From: Allostreptomyces psammosilenae
GTDB taxonomy: Bacteria > Actinomycetota > Actinomycetes > Streptomycetales > Streptomycetaceae
Length of the DNA: 64,000 nucleotides
Assembly: GCF_013407765.1 (NCBI RefSeq)
Contig: NZ_JACBZD010000002.1
Coordinates: 506,001-570,000 of the forward strand
Direction of reading: 5' to 3'
A model generated the notes under the pieces. It was not told where the DNA came from and searched no databases. It saw only the letters and a list, made by a program, of their open reading frames with translations. The position numbers and the translations under genes are program-made. Positions 28,458-37,339 of this stretch are shown piece after piece; positions within the stretch are counted from its first letter, which is position 1, and every line of letters starts with the position of its first letter.

Positions 28458-28925
28458 GTGTCAAGCGAACAGGCGCGGCTCGTCAGGGAGATCTCGGAAC
28501 GGCTCAGAAGCACCACCCAGCGCGCCATGCGGATGAACGCCACCGCGGCCGGCGTGATCGGCGTCAACCCCACCGACCTGCAGTGCATCCAGCTGCTCCA
28601 GCACGGCCCGCTCACCGCCGGCGAACTCGCGCGCCGGACCGGGCTGACCACCGCGTCCATGACCACCGTCATCGACCGCCTGGAACGGGCCGGGTTCGTG
28701 GCCCGCACCCGGGACGCCGCGGACCGCCGCCGCGTCCTGGTCGAGCTCGACGCCGAGCGGGCCGGCTCGGACGTCGCGCCGGTGTTCCTCCCGGTCGTCC
28801 AGGCCTGGCGGGAGCTGATGGCCGACTACGACGCCCGCGACCTCCAGCTCATCGCCACCTTCCTCGGCCGGGTCGAGCAGGCCATCGAGGACGCCATCGA
28901 GTCGTACCGCGAGGACCGGGAGTAG
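28458..28925 (+). CDS. MarR family transcriptional regulator
   Basis: 155 residues, dimeric winged-helix. Recognition region: LTAGELARRTGLTTASMTTVIDRLERAGFVARTRDAADRRRVLVEL spans about residues 52-97, with the DRR wing motif typical of MarR. Helices on both sides form the dimer interface. GTG start; only a weak GAGG lies upstream at ten bases. Divergent from the secreted two-repeat protein, with a candidate operator between. Ligand unknown. Confidence 0.9.
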   Translation: MSSEQARLVREISERLRSTTQRAMRMNATAAGVIGVNPTDLQCIQLLQHGPLTAGELARRTGLTTASMTTVIDRLERAGFVARTRDAADRRRVLVELDAERAGSDVAPVFLPVVQAWRELMADYDARDLQLIATFLGRVEQAIEDAIESYREDRE

Positions 28926-29056
28926 GCGGGCGGTCCGCGACGCCAGGGGGCGGGATCACGCCAATCGATCGGGGGTTTCGTAACTTCTGTACACGGCTGG
29001 GCGAGGCAGCCACAATGCCAGGATGGGTGGGGTGGCGTCACGCGCGGGGGGTCGCG

Positions 29057-30004
29057 ATGGGTGAGCCGTGGGGCCTGACGGGGGCCGATTTCCTGACGTT
29101 GTACAGCGGGCTGCTGATCATCTGTGTGACGGGTGTGATGGCCCGTCGGCGTCGCGTCCTGGAGCACTACCAGCTGACCTCCGGGCCGCAACGCCAGCTC
29201 GACGTGTACGAGCTGGCGTACCTCGCCGGCGGGCCCGCCCGGGTCGTGGACACGGCCGCCTCCGCGCTGGTCGCGGAGGGGCGGTTACGCGCCCGGCGGG
29301 ACGGCCGGCTGGCCAGGGTCAGCGGCGCCGGCGGCGGGTACGGGCACGACGTCGAGCGCCTGGTGCACGACAACCTGCTGCCGCACACCGCCACCTCCCT
29401 CCAGCGCGTCCGGGAGCGGGCCGTGGCGGACCCGCGGATGGTCGCCATCCGTGACCGGCTGCGCCGGGACGGACTGCTCGTCACCGAACACCAGATCACC
29501 CAGGTGCGCCGGCCGGTGCTGGCCCTCGGCATCCCGCTGACCCTCGGCATCGTCCGGCTGGTCAACGCCGCCCGGCTCGGCTACCCGGTCACCCAGCTCG
29601 CCGTGGTGCTCTCCCTCACCGTCCTGCTCGCCGCCCTGCTGTGGTGGCCGCCGCACTACACCGAGCACGGGCGTGACCTGCTGCGACGGCTGCGCGAGGC
29701 GGGCCCGGCGGAGCGGGCGCCGCGGGCCGTGGCCTTACCCGGGGGCGGTGGCCCGGGCGGTGGCCGCAGCGGTGGCCCGGGCGGTGCGGCGGGCGTGGGC
29801 CCGGGGTTCGAGGTCGCGGCGGTGGCGCTGTTCGGGGCCGCCGCCATCACGGAGGCCGGCCTGCGCGGCGCGCTCTTCCCGGCCGGCCGGAAGCCGGACA
29901 CGGGGGGTGACGGCGGCGGGAACGGCTCGGGCGCCGACGGCGTCTGTGGGGGTGACGGCGGCTGCGGCGGGGCCTGCGGCGGCTGCGGCGGCTGCGGCGG
30001 CTGA
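29057..30004 (+). CDS. TIGR04222 membrane protein with Gly/Cys-rich tail (first)
   Basis: 315 residues. An N-terminal hydrophobic segment (FLTLYSGLLIICVTGVMA), a soluble domain with YELAYLAGGPARVVDTA and the VERLVHDNLL region, then two more membrane segments (PVLALGIPLTLGIVRLVN and LAVVLSLTVLLAALLWW). After a conserved block (VALFGAAAITEAGLRGALFP) comes a low-complexity tail ending CGGACGGCGGCGG, with five cysteines in 20 residues. TIGR04222 proteins are known for such tails and for lying beside DUF692 genes. GGGGGG lies five bases before the ATG. Probably the substrate or scaffold modified by the DUF692 enzyme three genes on (inference). Confidence 0.88.
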   Translation: MGEPWGLTGADFLTLYSGLLIICVTGVMARRRRVLEHYQLTSGPQRQLDVYELAYLAGGPARVVDTAASALVAEGRLRARRDGRLARVSGAGGGYGHDVERLVHDNLLPHTATSLQRVRERAVADPRMVAIRDRLRRDGLLVTEHQITQVRRPVLALGIPLTLGIVRLVNAARLGYPVTQLAVVLSLTVLLAALLWWPPHYTEHGRDLLRRLREAGPAERAPRAVALPGGGGPGGGRSGGPGGAAGVGPGFEVAAVALFGAAAITEAGLRGALFPAGRKPDTGGDGGGNGSGADGVCGGDGGCGGACGGCGGCGG

Positions 30005-30027
30005 GACGCGGGGACGGGGGAGACATC

Positions 30028-30894
30028 GTGAACGACGAACCGTGGGGCATCTCCGGCCCCACCTTCCTGCTGCTGTACATCGCCCTGTACGCCGCCTGCC
30101 TGGTGGCGGTCGTGCTGCTCCGGCGCCGGGCGCTCGCCGGCGACGGATCGGCCTCCGGCGCGGCGCGGACGCGTCGGGACCGCGACCCGTACCAGGTCGC
30201 CTACCTCTGCGGTGGGCCGGAACGGGTGGTCGCCACGGCGGCGGCCTCGCTGGTCGCCCAACAGCGGGTGCGGGCCGCGCGCGGCGGCAGGCTCACCGCC
30301 GTCAAGGGCGCGTCCTCCCCCTCACACGAGGTGGAACGGCTGCTGAGGGAGAGCCTCAGCGAACACCAGGAGACCCCGCTGCGGATGGTCCGCCTGGAGT
30401 TCCGCGGCCACCCCAGGATCCGGGCCATCCGGGACGACCTCGTCTCCGACGGGCTGATCCCCACGGACCACCAGGTCGCCCAGGCCCGACGGGCGGCGCT
30501 GCTGCTGCTCGTCCCGCTGGTCGTCGGCATCGCGCGCCTGGTGAACGGGATCCGCCTGGACCGCCCGGTCGGCTTCCTGATCGCCCTGCTCGTCCTCAGC
30601 CTGGTCGTCGGCGCCCTGCTGTGGCACGTGCCGCCGCTCAGCCGGCAGGGGTACGCCGAGCTTCGACGGCTGCGGCAGGCCACCCCGCTGCGCCGCGGAC
30701 AGTCGGGTTCGGACGTCGACCTCGCCATGGTGGCCGTCTGGGGTGGCCTCGCGATCAGCGACACCGCCCTGCGCGGCGCGCTCTTCCCCAGCTCCTCCAG
30801 CGGTGGTGGCGGTGACGGTGGTGGCGGTGGTGGCGGCGGCGGTGACGGCGGTGGCGGAGGCGGCTGCGGCGGCGGAGGCGGGTGCGGCGGATGA
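30028..30894 (+). CDS. TIGR04222 membrane protein with Gly/Cys-rich tail (second)
   Basis: 288 residues, GTG start, clear paralogue of the preceding gene ([67 protein letters not shown]). The architecture is the same: one N-terminal and two central membrane segments, then a Gly-rich tail of about 40 residues ending CGGGGGCGG. The tail has only two Cys, against five in the first copy. The stop overlaps the DUF692 start (ATGA), so it is directly coupled to the modifying enzyme. Confidence 0.88.
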
Positions 30895-31766
30895 CGCCCC
30901 GACTCGGCGTCGGAATCGGCTGGCGGCCGGAGATCGACCTGACCGTGGAGCGGCTGCCCGGGGTGGACTTCGTCGAGGTCGTCGCGGAGAACGTCCGCCC
31001 CGAGCGGCTGCCCGACTCGCTCGTCGAACTCCGCGCACGCGGCCTGCCCGTCGTCCCGCACGGCGTGACCCTCTCGCTCGGCGGGGCGGAGCGGCCCGAT
31101 CCGGCGCGACTCGACCGCCTGGCGCGCACCGCCGCCGCGCTGGACGCCCCGCTGGTCAGCGAGCACCTGGCGTTCGTCCGCGCCGGCGACCTGGAGGCCG
31201 GCCACCTGCTGCCGCTCCCACGCACCCGCGAGGCGCTGGCGGTGGTGGCGGAGAACGTCCGGATCGCGCAGGACGCGCTGCCGGTGCCGCTCGCCCTGGA
31301 GAACGTCGCCGCCCTGCTCAGCTGGCCCCAGGACGAGCTGACCGAGGCGCAGTTCCTGGGCGAACTGGTCGAGCGCACCGGCGTGCTGCTGCTGATCGAC
31401 GTCGCCAACCTCTACACCAACCAGGTCAACGTGGGCCTCGACCCGGTCACCGTCCTCGACGCCGTCCCGCCGGACCACCTCGCCTACGTGCACGTCGCCG
31501 GCGGCGTCATGCGCGACGGCGTCTGGCACGACACCCACGCCCACCCGGTGCCGGCGCCGGTGCTGGACCTGCTCGCCGCGCTGTGCGAACGCGTCCCACC
31601 GCCCGGGGTCCTGCTGGAGCGTGACGACAACTACCCCTCCGACGCCGACCTCGCCGCCGAACTGGCCGCCATCCGGGCCGTGATCCAGCCGGGGCACGAC
31701 CCGGGGCCCGCCACGCGGCCCGAGCCGGGGCCCGCGGCGGACGGCGGCGCCGCCCGTGACGACTGA
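30891..31766 (+). CDS. DUF692 multinuclear non-heme iron-dependent oxidase (MNIO)
   Basis: 291 residues with a TIM-barrel DUF692 fold related to MbnB (methanobactin) and TglH. Metal-ligand motifs: [59 protein letters not shown] and LLERDDNYP. Such enzymes modify cysteines (oxazolone/thioamide, Cys excision) or Asp/Asn in precursor peptides. ATG 30891 overlaps the TIGR04222 stop; a GTG three codons earlier is possible. Cys-rich tails encoded immediately upstream are the obvious candidate substrates; the small next gene is probably the required partner. Confidence 0.92.
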
Positions 31767-32151
31767 CCAGCCGCCGGCCGGCGGGGAGCGGCCGGACGAC
31801 GGCGCCCGGGGCCGCCTCGCCGCCGCCCAGGCGGAACTGCTGGCCGCGCTGGTCGCCGGCGGCCCCGCCCCCGCCGGCTTCGACCCGGCCCGCCTGCGGA
31901 CCCAGGCCGCCGCGCTGGCCGCCAAGCGCCGCCGGGTGGCGCGGCGGGTCTGGCCGGAACTGGCCCACGCCCTCGGCGACCGCTTCGACCCGCTCTTCGA
32001 CGACTACGCCGCCCGCCATCCCCGCCCCGCCGAGGGCGCACGGGCCGACGTCCGCGCCTTCGCCGCCGACCTGCGCGCCCGCGGCCTCCTCCCAGCCGGC
32101 CTCGTCCCCTCCCCGCTGCGCCGCCTGCTGCGCCGGATCACCCGCCGCTGA
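31756..32151 (+). CDS. Small DUF692-partner protein (HvfC/SCO6045-like)
   Basis: 131 residues, GTG start inside the end of the DUF692 gene (11-base overlap). After an acidic, disordered head there is a helical domain: [27 protein letters not shown] then [26 protein letters not shown]. This pattern (Arg-rich helix, P-x-L-x-x-x-LG, HPRP) recalls the DUF2063/HvfC partner of DUF692 enzymes, and the small protein beside SCO6044 in S. coelicolor. Likely binds substrate and delivers it to the MNIO enzyme (inference). Ends in a basic tail ([10 protein letters not shown]). Confidence 0.78.
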
Positions 32152-32228: not shown

Positions 32229-33905
32229 TCAGTACAGGCCGACGTCGGGGGAGGAGGACGTGGTGCTGTCGCGCCACAGGCTGCCCCGGCGGTCGGCGAA
32301 GTAGACCCGCATCAACTCGTTGTCGCTGGCCAGCAGATCGGCGTAGCCGTCGCCGTTGATGTCCCCCGGGGAGACGAGGTCCCGGAAGGCGGACCAGCCG
32401 CCGCCGAGCCGCACCCGGGTCTGGAACGGCGCGCTCGCGCTGCCGGTGCCCCTGTAGAGGTAGAGGTCGCCGGCGGGCGTGCGGGCGAGCAGGTCGGCGC
32501 GGCCGTCACCGGTGATGTCCCCGCCGCCCAGCAGGCGGTTGTACGCCTGCCAGCCGGGGCCGATAAGCCGGCGCGTCGCGAAGCCGGCGCCGCTGCCGTT
32601 GCCCGCGTACAGGTACAGCTCCCCGGCGGGGGTCCGGGCGACCAGGTCGCCCTTGCCGTCGCCGGTGAGGTCGCCCGGGCCGACGATGGCGTTGAACATG
32701 TTCCAGCCGGGGCCGATGCGCGTGCTGCCGTTGTAGAGCACACCGCTGGTGTCACGGCGGAGCAGGTCGCCGGGGGAGTGCTCGGTCAGGGCGTTGGCGT
32801 ACACCAGGGTGCCGCCGGTCGGGGTGTCGACGAGGCGGGGGGAGACGAAGGCGCCGTCGAACACCCGGTGGTGGTAGAGCTGCCCGGTCGAGGTGCGGTG
32901 GTAGTAGTCGGTGCGGCCGTGGTAGCCGTTGCCGCCGGCACCGGCGTAGGAGAAGCCGATGTGCCAGCCGGCGTCGGGGCCGCTCGTGCGGGCCAGGAAG
33001 CCGCCGGAGCCGTTGCCCCGGTGCAGGTGCAGCACCGGGTCGCGGTACTGGTTGGTGGTGCGGGCGAGCAGGTCGGCGACGCCGTCGCCGGTGTAATCGC
33101 CCACCCCGATCAGCTGGGTGTAGCCGCCCCACCCGGGGCCGTGCAGCCGCCGGAGGGCCAGTGGCGCGGTGGCGGAACCGGTGCCGTGGTAGAGGTACAG
33201 GTCGCCGGCGGGGGTGCGGGCGGCGACGTCGCCGAGGCCGTCGCGGTTGATGTCGCCGAGGCCGACGAGTTGGTCGTAGCCCTGCCAGCCGCCGCCGACC
33301 CGGACGCGCGGGGCGAACGGGTTGGTCCGGTCACCGGTCGCCACGTAGAGGTAGAGGTCCCCGCCGGGAGTCCGGGCCAGCAGGTCGGCGAGGCCGTCGC
33401 CGGTGACGTCGCCGGGCCCGAGGACCTTGTTGAACATCTGCCAGCCGATCCCCCTCCAGTAGGAGGACAGGAAGTCGTTCTCCGCCCGAGTGTCGAACAG
33501 GCGCAGCGAGCCGGTGGCGGTGAGCCCCAGGAGGTCGCTGGAGCCGTCCCCGGTGACGTCGCCGGGGGCGATGAGGTCCTTCCAGTCGGGCGGGGCGCTC
33601 TCACCGAGGACGTCCAGGCCCCACAGGTACATCTCTCCCGAGGGCAGGCTGGCCAGCACCTCCGGCATGCGGCTGCCGCTGTACGGCCGGACCGGGCGGA
33701 ACAGCACGAGGTCGGAGCGCCCGTCCCCGTTAAAGTCGTTGCGTGGCGCGACGGCGGCGGCCGTCGACGCCGCCGGGGCCGCCACGGCGGGCGGAGCCGG
33801 CACGGCGGTGGACAGCACGGCGGAGGCGACCAGGGCGGAGCAGGTCGCGAGGAGGCGCGCCGCACGACGCGCGGAGCGTGCGGGCGGACGCGTGCCGGAA
33901 GACAT
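32229..33905 (-). CDS. Secreted FG-GAP/VCBS repeat protein
   Basis: 558 residues. Signal peptide: Arg-rich start (RSARRAARLLA), hydrophobic LVASAVLSTAVPAPPAV, likely cleavage after AVA. The mature protein consists of eight calcium-binding repeats of about 55-60 residues, each with DxNGDGxxDL-type loops: DFNGDGRSDLVLF, DVTGDGSSDLLGL, DVTGDGLADLLAR, DINRDGLGDVAAR, DYTGDGVADLLAR, DLTGDGKGDLVAR, DITGDGRADLLAR and DINGDGYADLLAS. These should fold as a beta-propeller. No catalytic domain is seen, so a binding or structural extracellular role is likely. It stands alone. Confidence 0.9.
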   Translation of the reverse strand: MSSGTRPPARSARRAARLLATCSALVASAVLSTAVPAPPAVAAPAASTAAAVAPRNDFNGDGRSDLVLFRPVRPYSGSRMPEVLASLPSGEMYLWGLDVLGESAPPDWKDLIAPGDVTGDGSSDLLGLTATGSLRLFDTRAENDFLSSYWRGIGWQMFNKVLGPGDVTGDGLADLLARTPGGDLYLYVATGDRTNPFAPRVRVGGGWQGYDQLVGLGDINRDGLGDVAARTPAGDLYLYHGTGSATAPLALRRLHGPGWGGYTQLIGVGDYTGDGVADLLARTTNQYRDPVLHLHRGNGSGGFLARTSGPDAGWHIGFSYAGAGGNGYHGRTDYYHRTSTGQLYHHRVFDGAFVSPRLVDTPTGGTLVYANALTEHSPGDLLRRDTSGVLYNGSTRIGPGWNMFNAIVGPGDLTGDGKGDLVARTPAGELYLYAGNGSGAGFATRRLIGPGWQAYNRLLGGGDITGDGRADLLARTPAGDLYLYRGTGSASAPFQTRVRLGGGWSAFRDLVSPGDINGDGYADLLASDNELMRVYFADRRGSLWRDSTTSSSPDVGLY

Positions 33906-34071: not shown

Positions 34072-34869
34072 CTACGGCTTGCGGCCGACGGCGATGTAGC
34101 CGCCGAGGTCCTCCTCGCGGGGGCGCTCGGCGCCCTCCGGGTACGGCCAGTAGGGGGAGACGCCCTCGCCGGCCAGCTCCATGCCGGTGTAGAAGCGCTC
34201 CACCTCGGCCTTGGTGCGGGTGACCAGGGTGATGCCGGAGGCGGTGTAGACCTTGACGATCTCCTGGAAGGCGGTGGAGGGGAAGTCGGCGGTCGCGTGG
34301 GAGATGACCAGGTGGCTGCCGGAGGGCAGGGCGTCCATCAGGGTCTGGACGACCGGGTAGGCCTCCTCGTCCGGGACGAAGTGCAGGGTGGCGATGAACA
34401 TCAGGGCGACCGGCTGGGTGAGGTCCAGCGTGGCGCGCAGGTCCGGGTGGTCCAGGATGGAGCGCGGGTCGCGCAGGTCGGCGTCGATGTAGGCGGTGCG
34501 GCCCTCGGGGCTGGACTTCAGCAGGGCGCGGGCGTGCGCCAGGACGATCGGGTCGTTGTCGACGTACACGATCCGGGCGTCCGGGGCGAGGGACTGGGCC
34601 ACCTCGTGGGTGTTGTCCTCGGTGGGGATGCCGGTGCCGATGTCCAGGAACTGGCGTATGCCCGCCTCGCGCACCAGGTAGGTGACGGCGGAACCCAGGA
34701 AGCGGCGGTTGGCGATCGCGCCGGTGCGGATCGACGGGGCGATGGCCAGGACCTTCTCGGCCGCCTCGCGGTCCGCGGGGAAGTTGTCCTTGCCTCCGAG
34801 GAAGTAGTTGTACATGCGTGCCGAGTGCGGCACGTCGGTACGCAGGTCGATCGGTCCGTCGGCGGCCAT
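34072..34869 (-). CDS. DUF574-type SAM-dependent methyltransferase (first)
   Basis: 265 residues of the SAM-dependent methyltransferase family PF04672, abundant in Streptomyces. Marks: HSARMYNYFLGGKDNFPADREAAEK, QFLDIGTGIPTEDNTHEVAQ (SAM motif I), IVYVDNDPIVLAHARALL and GSHLVISHATADF. ATG 34869 has GGGGGAG upstream; a frame to 34908 is not needed. Substrate unknown. Divergent from glyA; paralogue of the gene on the other side of glyA (about 45% identical by eye). Confidence 0.9.
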   Translation of the reverse strand: MAADGPIDLRTDVPHSARMYNYFLGGKDNFPADREAAEKVLAIAPSIRTGAIANRRFLGSAVTYLVREAGIRQFLDIGTGIPTEDNTHEVAQSLAPDARIVYVDNDPIVLAHARALLKSSPEGRTAYIDADLRDPRSILDHPDLRATLDLTQPVALMFIATLHFVPDEEAYPVVQTLMDALPSGSHLVISHATADFPSTAFQEIVKVYTASGITLVTRTKAEVERFYTGMELAGEGVSPYWPYPEGAERPREEDLGGYIAVGRKP

Positions 34870-34982
34870 GGAGACTCCCCCTGTTGCGCGGTGATCGGGC
34901 GTCAGCATCCTACGGGGGCGCAGGAGGGACGGGCCCGGCGCGTACCGGGGAAAACCCGGGTCGCGCGGCGGGCGCGGCTGGG

Positions 34983-36538: not shown

Positions 36539-37339
36539 TCAGTGGCCCCGGCGGCCCAGGGCGCCGTAGGAGACGTGCCAGTGGCCCTCCTGCGGGGGCT
36601 CCAGGCTGGCCGGGCGCCACTGGGCCTCCGGGACCACGCCCGGCTCGACCAGCTCCATGCCGGTGAAGAAGCGGGCCACCTCCGCCCGGGACCGGCCGGT
36701 CACCGGGATGCCGGACGCCCGGTACACCGTGCCGACCCGGTCGGCGACCATCGGCGGGGTGTAGTCCCCGGTGGCGTGCGAGACCGCCAGGTGGCTGCCG
36801 GGCGCCAGCGCCGCCTTCAGCCCCTCCACCAACCGGTACGCCGACGGCCCGGGGAAGTAGTGCAGCAGGCCGGTGACCAGCAGGCCGACCGGCCGGCGCA
36901 GGTCGATGGTGTCGTTCAGCACGGGGTGCCGCAGCAGCGCCTCGGTGTCCAGCGCGTCGGCCTCCACGTAGACGGTGGCCCCCTCCGGGCTGCTCTTGAG
37001 CAGGGCGCGGGCGTGCGCCAGGACGAGCGGGTCGTTGTCGACGTACACCACCCGGGCGTCGGGCGCGATCGCCTGGGCCACCTCGTGGGTGTTGCAGTGG
37101 GTGGGCATCCCGGTGCCGACGTCGAGGAACTGCCGGATGCCCACCTCGCCGGCGAGGTACTCCACCACCCGTCCCACGAACCCGCGGTGCTCCAGCAGGG
37201 CGGAGCGCATGAACGGCACCGCGCCGAGCACGCCGATGGCGGCGTCGCGGTCGGCCGGGAAGTAGTCCTTGCCGCCGAGGAAGTAGTTCCCCATGCGCGC
37301 CGGATGCGGGGCGTCCGTCCCGAGCGTCATGAGCGTCAC
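36539..37339 (-). CDS. DUF574-type SAM-dependent methyltransferase (second)
   Basis: 266 residues, same family as the gene before glyA. HPARMGNYFLGGKDYFPADRDAA, QFLDVGTGMPTHCNTHEVAQ, VVYVDNDPLVLAHARALLKS and SHLAVSHATGDYTPP. Sequence shared with the paralogue includes the invariant LLKSSPEG. It is convergent with glyA. The two copies lie on the same strand on either side of glyA, so glyA interrupts, or was inserted into, a tandem pair. Confidence 0.9.
   Translation of the reverse strand: MTLMTLGTDAPHPARMGNYFLGGKDYFPADRDAAIGVLGAVPFMRSALLEHRGFVGRVVEYLAGEVGIRQFLDVGTGMPTHCNTHEVAQAIAPDARVVYVDNDPLVLAHARALLKSSPEGATVYVEADALDTEALLRHPVLNDTIDLRRPVGLLVTGLLHYFPGPSAYRLVEGLKAALAPGSHLAVSHATGDYTPPMVADRVGTVYRASGIPVTGRSRAEVARFFTGMELVEPGVVPEAQWRPASLEPPQEGHWHVSYGALGRRGH

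Follow-up and report, generated by a model that had tools for sequence, protein, structure and literature searches.

The window analysed here is a stretch of 64,000 nucleotides from Allostreptomyces psammosilenae (assembly GCF_013407765.1, contig NZ_JACBZD010000002.1, positions 506,001 to 570,000). Four genes on the same (+) strand span positions 29057–32151 of the window: two tandem genes for paralogous TIGR04222 membrane proteins that end in Gly/Cys-rich tails (T1 and T2), a gene for an MNIO (DUF692) enzyme (M), and a gene for a small partner protein (P). An earlier sequence-only reading of this DNA had described tandem Cys-tailed membrane proteins with a DUF692 oxidase, and all four genes were found, with five Cys in the tail of T1 and two in that of T2. 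The Cys residues of the tails are the likely substrate of M, and the tails quite probably lie on the cytoplasmic side of the membrane.

Gene Organisation of the Locus

The genes and their features are as follows (all on the + strand):

29057..30004: T1, TIGR04222 membrane protein, 315 aa (123.2 bits against the NCBIfam model, cut-off 43)
29903..30001: tail of T1, the last 33 residues with five Cys and Gly after each, presumed MNIO target (from the sequence)
30028..30894: T2, TIGR04222 membrane protein, 288 aa, GTG start, two-Cys tail (143.5 bits against the NCBIfam model, cut-off 43)
30055..30135: first transmembrane (TM) segment of T2, residues 10–36, N-terminus predicted to be outside (charge distribution, AlphaFold2 [AF2] model)
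30178..30483: first half of the putatively GOLPH3/GPP34-like soluble part of T2, residues 51–152, predicted to be cytoplasmic (profile comparison, VIA-align)
30466..30624: TM2–TM3 hairpin of T2, helices 147–176 and 182–199 (AF2 model, global alignment to GPP34)
30721..30753: helix 4 of T2, residues 232–242, 11 aa, mildly hydrophobic (AF2 model, global alignment)
30790..30891: tail of T2, the last 34 residues with two Cys (AF2 pLDDT below 50 at residues 258–271 and 274–285)
30891..31766: M, MNIO (DUF692) enzyme, 291 aa (match to PF05114)
31756..32151: P, small partner protein, 131 aa, of the family that in many relatives supplies a domain attached C-terminally to MNIO (profile search)

T1 and T2 share 50% identity and are the only TIGR04222 matches of the genome at E ≤ 0.001; M is the genome's single PF05114 match. 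The start codon of T1 is the ATG at 29057, with an in-frame ATG at 29015 as a possible alternative. The overlaps that had been described for the whole set exist at two of the junctions, i.e., a shared ATGA between T2 and M and an 11-base overlap between M and P, whereas T1 and T2 are separated by 23 bases.

The assignment of M as a DUF692 oxidase stands, as it matches PF05114 with 277.4 bits (E = 1.3e-82, cut-off 25). The candidate metal-site residues are H57, E91/H92, E137, D170, H201, D214, H216, E243 and D245, which we take to be metal (iron) ligands, and the His/Asp/Glu motifs of M are invariant across 35 proteins in which MNIO and partner are fused. The MNIO TIM-barrel fold is seen in the model of one such fused relative (L091), standing in for M of the window, with VIA Z scores of 24–27 to MbnB, TglH and 3bww.

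The Cysteine Tails and Their Association with MNIO Genes

Of the window's 320 stop-to-stop open reading frames with 100 aa or more, four end with at least two Cys and at least 40% Gly plus Ser in the last 50 residues, and two of these four are T1 and T2; the tails are thus not a chance product of composition. The sequence-only reading took the different Cys numbers of T1 and T2 to suggest two products; among the tails of related proteins the number ranges from 2 to 10. In 43 non-redundant tails from loci with an MNIO gene, Gly follows Cys in 205 of 264 cases (264 being the tail Cys that have a following residue), compared with 99 ± 7.5 in within-tail shuffles, a count that is inflated by related tails and by repeat growth; one of the 43 contributes nothing, since only a single residue of it was left after trimming. 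Cys–Cys is absent from these tails, compared with 18 in shuffles, and the commonest Cys spacing is 6. A 137-residue miniature TIGR04222 protein lies between two larger ones at locus L055 (4481–4939) and consists only of the TM hairpin region, the next helix and a three-Cys tail.

For comparison between genomes, 80 regions were fetched, together with six named loci and further loci, and searched with profiles of the TIGR04222 proteins, the MNIO enzyme and the partner (T, M and P hereafter, with M=P for a fusion). The loci were chosen by hand and the window's family was weighted heavily, so that the counts are not natural frequencies. A protein was counted as Cys-tailed when its last 50 residues were rich in Gly/Ser and contained two or more Cys, and “near M” means less than 3 kb away. 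Across the class-wide sample, a Cys tail is present in 20 of the 27 T near M, compared with 1 of 14 T in genomes lacking MNIO (Fisher, 5e-5). When the window's family is left aside, the counts are 16 of 17 and 1 of 14 (9e-7), and at the level of families they are 7 of 7 and 1 of 4 (Fisher, 0.024; 11 family rows). T whose genome has MNIO only elsewhere carry a Cys tail in 2 of 10 cases. In the order-wide sample, MNIO is present in 155 of 157 genomes with T and in 20 of 40 without (a table counted by hand from match lists).

Because the genomes are related to each other, these p-values overstate the association. Six of the 14 rows without MNIO are from one genus (g43), and a few rows (e.g., L058, L061 and L071) have odd or weak T frames. 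Scoring of genomes for TIGR04222 covered the best 13 to 16 first-look candidates per genome, so absences are soft; weak class-wide TIGR04222 matches were mostly left out of the sample, and L082, which has no T by the T profile, was fetched. Co-occurrence of tails and DUF692 genes, whose absence the sequence-only reading had named as a refutation, is found across genomes, with exceptions that are weighed below.

The Partner Protein

P is present at 61 of the 62 sampled loci whose fetched stretch contains M as well as T. At 45 of these it is fused to the C-terminus of MNIO, and at 16 it is encoded by a separate gene; at the only locus without it (L060), the stretch ends at a contig edge. Six further loci have M and P with no T nearby, and nine more MNIO loci have neither P nor T. 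In a quick tree of M proteins (from which L060 and the duplicate L125 were excluded), the 67 M with P form one branch (SH-aLRT 98) and the nine without P or T fall outside it. Four M–P pairs on this MNIO branch with no T nearby (L137, L138, L140 and L141) are all from family f20. The genomes of L138 and L140 have a Cys-tailed T elsewhere (L048 and L043), and that of L137 has elsewhere a T with an internal Cys–Gly stretch (L064), so modification in trans would be possible.

The partner had been called HvfC-like, for which little support was obtained: P scores 14.2 bits against DUF2063 (PF09836, cut-off 27.2) and 22.3 bits against PqqD, narrowly below its cut-off of 23.4. Even at E ≤ 1, only 4 of 35 relatives of P match DUF2063, and hhalign of P against two DUF2063 sequences gave a probability of 6.6. 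The P domain is all-helical in the model of the fusion protein. A search of solved structures with the P profile returned no relative below E 0.9, and TIM barrels took up the VIA list for the M=P model, none of them informative on the fold of P. From its position next to MNIO and its helical make-up, P may be a partner of PME-type 2, the type with a DUF2063-like fold that lacks the DUF2063 signature.

The fusion of P to MNIO could explain why many clusters in the survey of Antoine et al. (PMC12452194) lack a partner gene. Of the 13 places in the main text of that paper that concern fusions or chimaeras, the 12 examined name an MNIO–nitroreductase fusion and no MNIO–partner fusion.

The co-occurrence of tail and MNIO, the constrained Cys–Gly context and the near-constant presence of the partner together point to the tail Cys as a likely substrate of MNIO, as the sequence-only reading had supposed.

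Remote Similarity of the Soluble Domain to GOLPH3

GOLPH3 is a membrane adaptor with a membrane-dipping hairpin, and binding of phosphatidylinositol 4-phosphate and cargo tails is a mark of its superfamily. Profile comparison by hhalign of T with GPP34 (27 sequences) gave a probability of 87 (E 4e-6) for the set of T without TM segments, 89 (E 2e-6) for the full set, and 91.4 (E 9e-7) when the TM hairpin and tail had been removed. The controls were far lower: 0.72 for the best of 60 column shuffles, 0.38 for a reversed profile and 0.1–0.2 for unrelated profiles. In a global alignment, the C-terminal half of which is of low confidence, the removed TM hairpin is placed at the LGxFPxTR loop of GPP34 and helix 4 is matched to one of its core helices.

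The AF2 model of T2 (pLDDT 86.2, pTM 0.79) was compared with solved structures by VIA-align, which re-examines Foldseek's own list (327 chains). GOLPH3 (3kn1) was third, with Z 7.7, root-mean-square deviation 5.1 and 142 residues aligned, and Vps74 was seventh (2zih, Z 7.1, 143 residues) and eleventh (2zii, Z 6.9, 159 residues). The GOLPH3 and Vps74 alignments cover residues 50–259 of the model; most other rows run from within the first 19 residues to about residue 204, and a few to about 250.

Several results weigh against this relationship. The Z scores of 7–8 are middling, as a Z below 8 may according to the tool reflect merely a common arrangement, and a Foldseek search of the PDB with the T2 model yielded no match at E ≤ 0.001. 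Neither T1 nor T2 matches PF05719 (GPP34) at E ≤ 1; one of 64 T members does match (E = 0.0028), and for single members the matches to HTH_20, MarR_2 and further Pfam families are of similar quality to those to GPP34. Among the best 60 of 96 matches of the T profile to PDB sequences, most are to Gly-rich or linker regions, and there are weak winged-helix (MarR/Crp) matches, the best at 0.013. A general winged-helix resemblance could still lie behind the GPP34 signal. Taking the profile and model comparisons together, the soluble domain of T is probably a remote relative of GOLPH3/GPP34. T proteins differ from GPP34 by three further parts, namely TM1, a TM hairpin located where GPP34 has its loop, and the Gly/Cys tail.

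No paper linking GOLPH3 to TIGR04222 or DUF692 was found in the literature searches. The Streptomyces GOLPH3-like protein SCO4440, which affects peptidoglycan and wall-deficient cells (PMC12402492), is a PF05719 protein and, as far as the text of that paper tells, not a TIGR04222 protein.

Membrane Topology: the Side of the Tail

The first hydrophobic helix of T1 and T2 reads as a TM1 with its N-terminus outside, followed by two further TM helices. Of 37 T representatives (less than 60% identity, drawn from 87 T), 34 read as having three TM segments, and in 33 of these 34 Lys and Arg are more numerous in the parts expected to be inside for an N-out/C-in orientation; the lone exception (L053) looks mis-segmented. 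The mean number of Lys plus Arg is 1.1 in the N-terminal part, 3.1 after TM1, 2.9 before TM2, 1.0 in the hairpin loop, and 4.9 after TM3. In the model of T2 there are three long hydrophobic helices (10–36, 147–176 and 182–199), and the helix at 232–242 has only 11 residues.

Two TIGR04222 proteins encoded directly before M (L060 and L062) have no TM-like stretch, score above the TIGR04222 cut-off, and have 4 and 6 Cys, respectively, in their last 50 residues; that of L070 resembles them, is also above the cut-off, and has one ambiguous stretch. These TM-less proteins keep a helix equivalent to the would-be fourth TM segment of the membrane members. From the charge asymmetry, the TM-less relatives and the AF2 model taken together, tail and soluble domain share the cytoplasmic side, and there the tail would be accessible to an iron enzyme.

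On this evidence from sequences and a predicted structure, a cytoplasmic tail is quite probable, and helix 4 is taken as part of the soluble fold and not as a TM segment. The sequence-only reading had allowed for a modified tail on the cell surface; the same three lines of evidence point the other way. They also contradict a prediction in print, since Antoine et al. (PMC12452194) place the tail in the periplasm, and this prediction has to be counted against a cytoplasmic tail together with the three representatives that were dropped because they gave no three-segment reading, two of which (L111 and L052) are M-linked and Cys-tailed.

The published prediction amounts to an alternative in which the Cys tail is likewise an MNIO substrate and, as bufferins do, ends up outside, carried across by a fourth TM segment after modification. 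For this, some members have a helix 4 of mild hydrophobicity (Kyte–Doolittle values of 1.44 and 1.61 in the window and 2.46 in L057), but the helix has 11 residues in the T2 model, is charged in tail-less paralogs, recurs in the TM-less relatives, and falls on the GPP34 core helix (in the low-confidence half of the alignment). A tail outside the cell is unlikely, although it is the best of the alternatives.

Proposed Function and Alternatives

The explanation that is somewhat favoured is as follows. T1 and T2 would be membrane-tethered carriers whose soluble domain, remotely like GOLPH3, faces the cytoplasm, as does their flexible Gly/Cys tail; M, guided by P, would oxidise the tail Cys within x-Cys-Gly units. 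The tail would stay attached, so that no peptide is released and the product is a modified, metal-binding protein on the inner side of the membrane. By analogy with the nearest named relatives of M (BufB/HvfB type), the product may be 5-thiooxazole-like and could bind a soft metal, copper being one rather doubtful candidate. In the known precedent, EGKCG repeats are converted to 5-thiooxazoles by MNIO enzymes, with four H lost per repeat, and for fontiphorin a new UV absorbance near 300 nm is reported (PMC13097082).

A number of observations do not fit easily with this proposal. Although M scores best against BufB and HvfB among the named models, it is well under both equivalog cut-offs (197.8 compared with 310 bits for BufB, NF050167; 161.1 compared with 360 bits for HvfB, NF003818), and the residue before the tail Cys is mostly Ser or Gly, not Lys as in EGKCG. 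At 23 of the 62 loci with M and T, M=P is accompanied by tail-less T only; all are from genus g2 (probably Streptomyces) of the window's family, and they form one branch of the M tree (support 83). Finally, of six genomes that were checked, three (those of Planktothricoides and of two Modestobacter) have a Cys-tailed T and no PF05114 match, so that the tail may have a role that is independent of MNIO.

The last two of these observations would be accounted for if the tail were an unmodified thiol or metal-binding segment, M and P acted on a substrate encoded elsewhere, and the linkage to T reflected a shared stress response. Such a substrate is difficult to reconcile with M being the sole PF05114 gene of this genome, with the ATGA shared by T2 and M, and with the distribution of Cys tails outside the window's family (16 of 17 near M, 1 of 14 without MNIO), and this explanation is more improbable than a tail outside the cell. 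Least probable is that T is a scaffold that places M and P at the membrane, its tail recruiting the enzyme without being its product: GOLPH3 itself is an adaptor of membranes and tail-less T paralogs persist in M=P loci, but a constrained Cys–Gly pattern with a variable number of Cys is less well matched by a docking motif than by sites that are modified repeatedly along the tail. These explanations are not mutually exclusive with each other.

The tail-less loci have features of their own. They are L096, L097, L099–L104, L106–L110, L112–L115, L120, L129–L132 and L134, and in some (e.g., L096, L100, L103, L106 and L108) T is several kb from M within the stretch. A gene motif of the chlorite-dismutase (HemQ-like) family, which was confirmed with Pfam in L109 only, is present in all 23 stretches and in L094, which has a tail-less T and no M in its stretch; it was found in no stretch with a Cys-tailed T. 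No other Cys-rich precursor beside the tail-less T stood out among the open reading frames listed, the listing being noisy, and Pfam gave no confirmation of the family guessed for a conserved protein that is encoded in this clade between T and M=P. Near some tail-less M=P loci there is a small conserved protein, roughly 60 residues long, that has CxxC pairs (L097, 8428–8613; L107, 8993–9199; L109, 848–1045). In the two Modestobacter genomes without a PF05114 match, TM-less TIGR04222 proteins with a two-Cys Gly tail are encoded (L004, 2875–3552; L006, 5989–6657).

Returning to the favoured proposal, if the tail is cytoplasmic then the enzyme reaches a finished membrane protein and the modified tail needs no export, and the relevant role would be metal handling at the inner face, not secreted copper buffering. 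A GOLPH3-like fold, if true, would connect a large family that has no assigned function with a fold known from membrane adaptors. More tentatively, TIGR04222 may represent a bacterial branch of GOLPH3 in which a TM hairpin takes the place of the membrane-dipping loop and on whose cytoplasmic tail MNIO writes a multi-thiooxazole metal site that is neither cleaved nor exported, i.e., an internal, membrane-bound protein metallophore and not a secreted ribosomally synthesised and post-translationally modified peptide (RiPP). The question is directly testable, as the fusion of partner and MNIO allows reconstitution with an enzyme encoded by a single gene and the TM-less T provide soluble substrates.

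Relation to Known Systems

TglHI and MbnBC, each an MNIO with a partner, share the enzyme fold with M (VIA Z 25–27 for the M=P relative); they act on short peptide substrates and their partners are of other families than P. Bufferins and captophorins (BufA, FonA and HvfA, with MNIO and a DUF2063 partner) are similar in that the BufB and HvfB models give the highest scores for M and Gly follows Cys in the tails as in EGKCG repeats. However, their precursors have Sec signal peptides, whereas T1 and T2 are multi-helix membrane proteins with some soluble relatives, and P is not recognisable as a DUF2063 protein.

The closest likeness is to the TIGR04222/MNIO clusters of Antoine et al. (PMC12452194, published in 2025), in which an MNIO gene stands beside one for a Cys-tailed TIGR04222 protein, in some with a short PME-type 2 partner, and in which TIGR04222 proteins were proposed as MNIO substrates and make up 40% of the candidate substrates without a signal peptide. 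The locus in the window is a further member of this group, described in silico. That paper puts the tail and the large domains in the periplasm and many of its clusters have no partner gene; the loci sampled here suggest a cytoplasmic tail, nearly all of them have a partner, often in fused form, and some encode TM-less members. What is new here is this near-universal partner (within the sample), its frequent fusion, the TM-less members, the cytoplasmic-tail reading and the link to GOLPH3. The sequence-only reading knew of no settled description of the product, and for the product this holds, as none tested for a TIGR04222/MNIO pair was found in the open-licence full-text literature; the pairing itself, by contrast, was already in print. 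A 2016 paper (PMC5183585) has a TIGR04222 peptide in a predicted bacteriocin cluster.

Neighbouring Genes

Directly upstream of T1 is a gene for a MarR-type regulator (28458–28925). Directly downstream of the four genes is one for an FG-GAP repeat protein on the (−) strand (32229–33905), which is probably unrelated. Further downstream, two proteins similar to each other are encoded on the (−) strand (34072–34908 and 36539–37339); they are presumably S-adenosylmethionine-dependent methyltransferases, and the gene between them we take to encode a glycine hydroxymethyltransferase-like protein.

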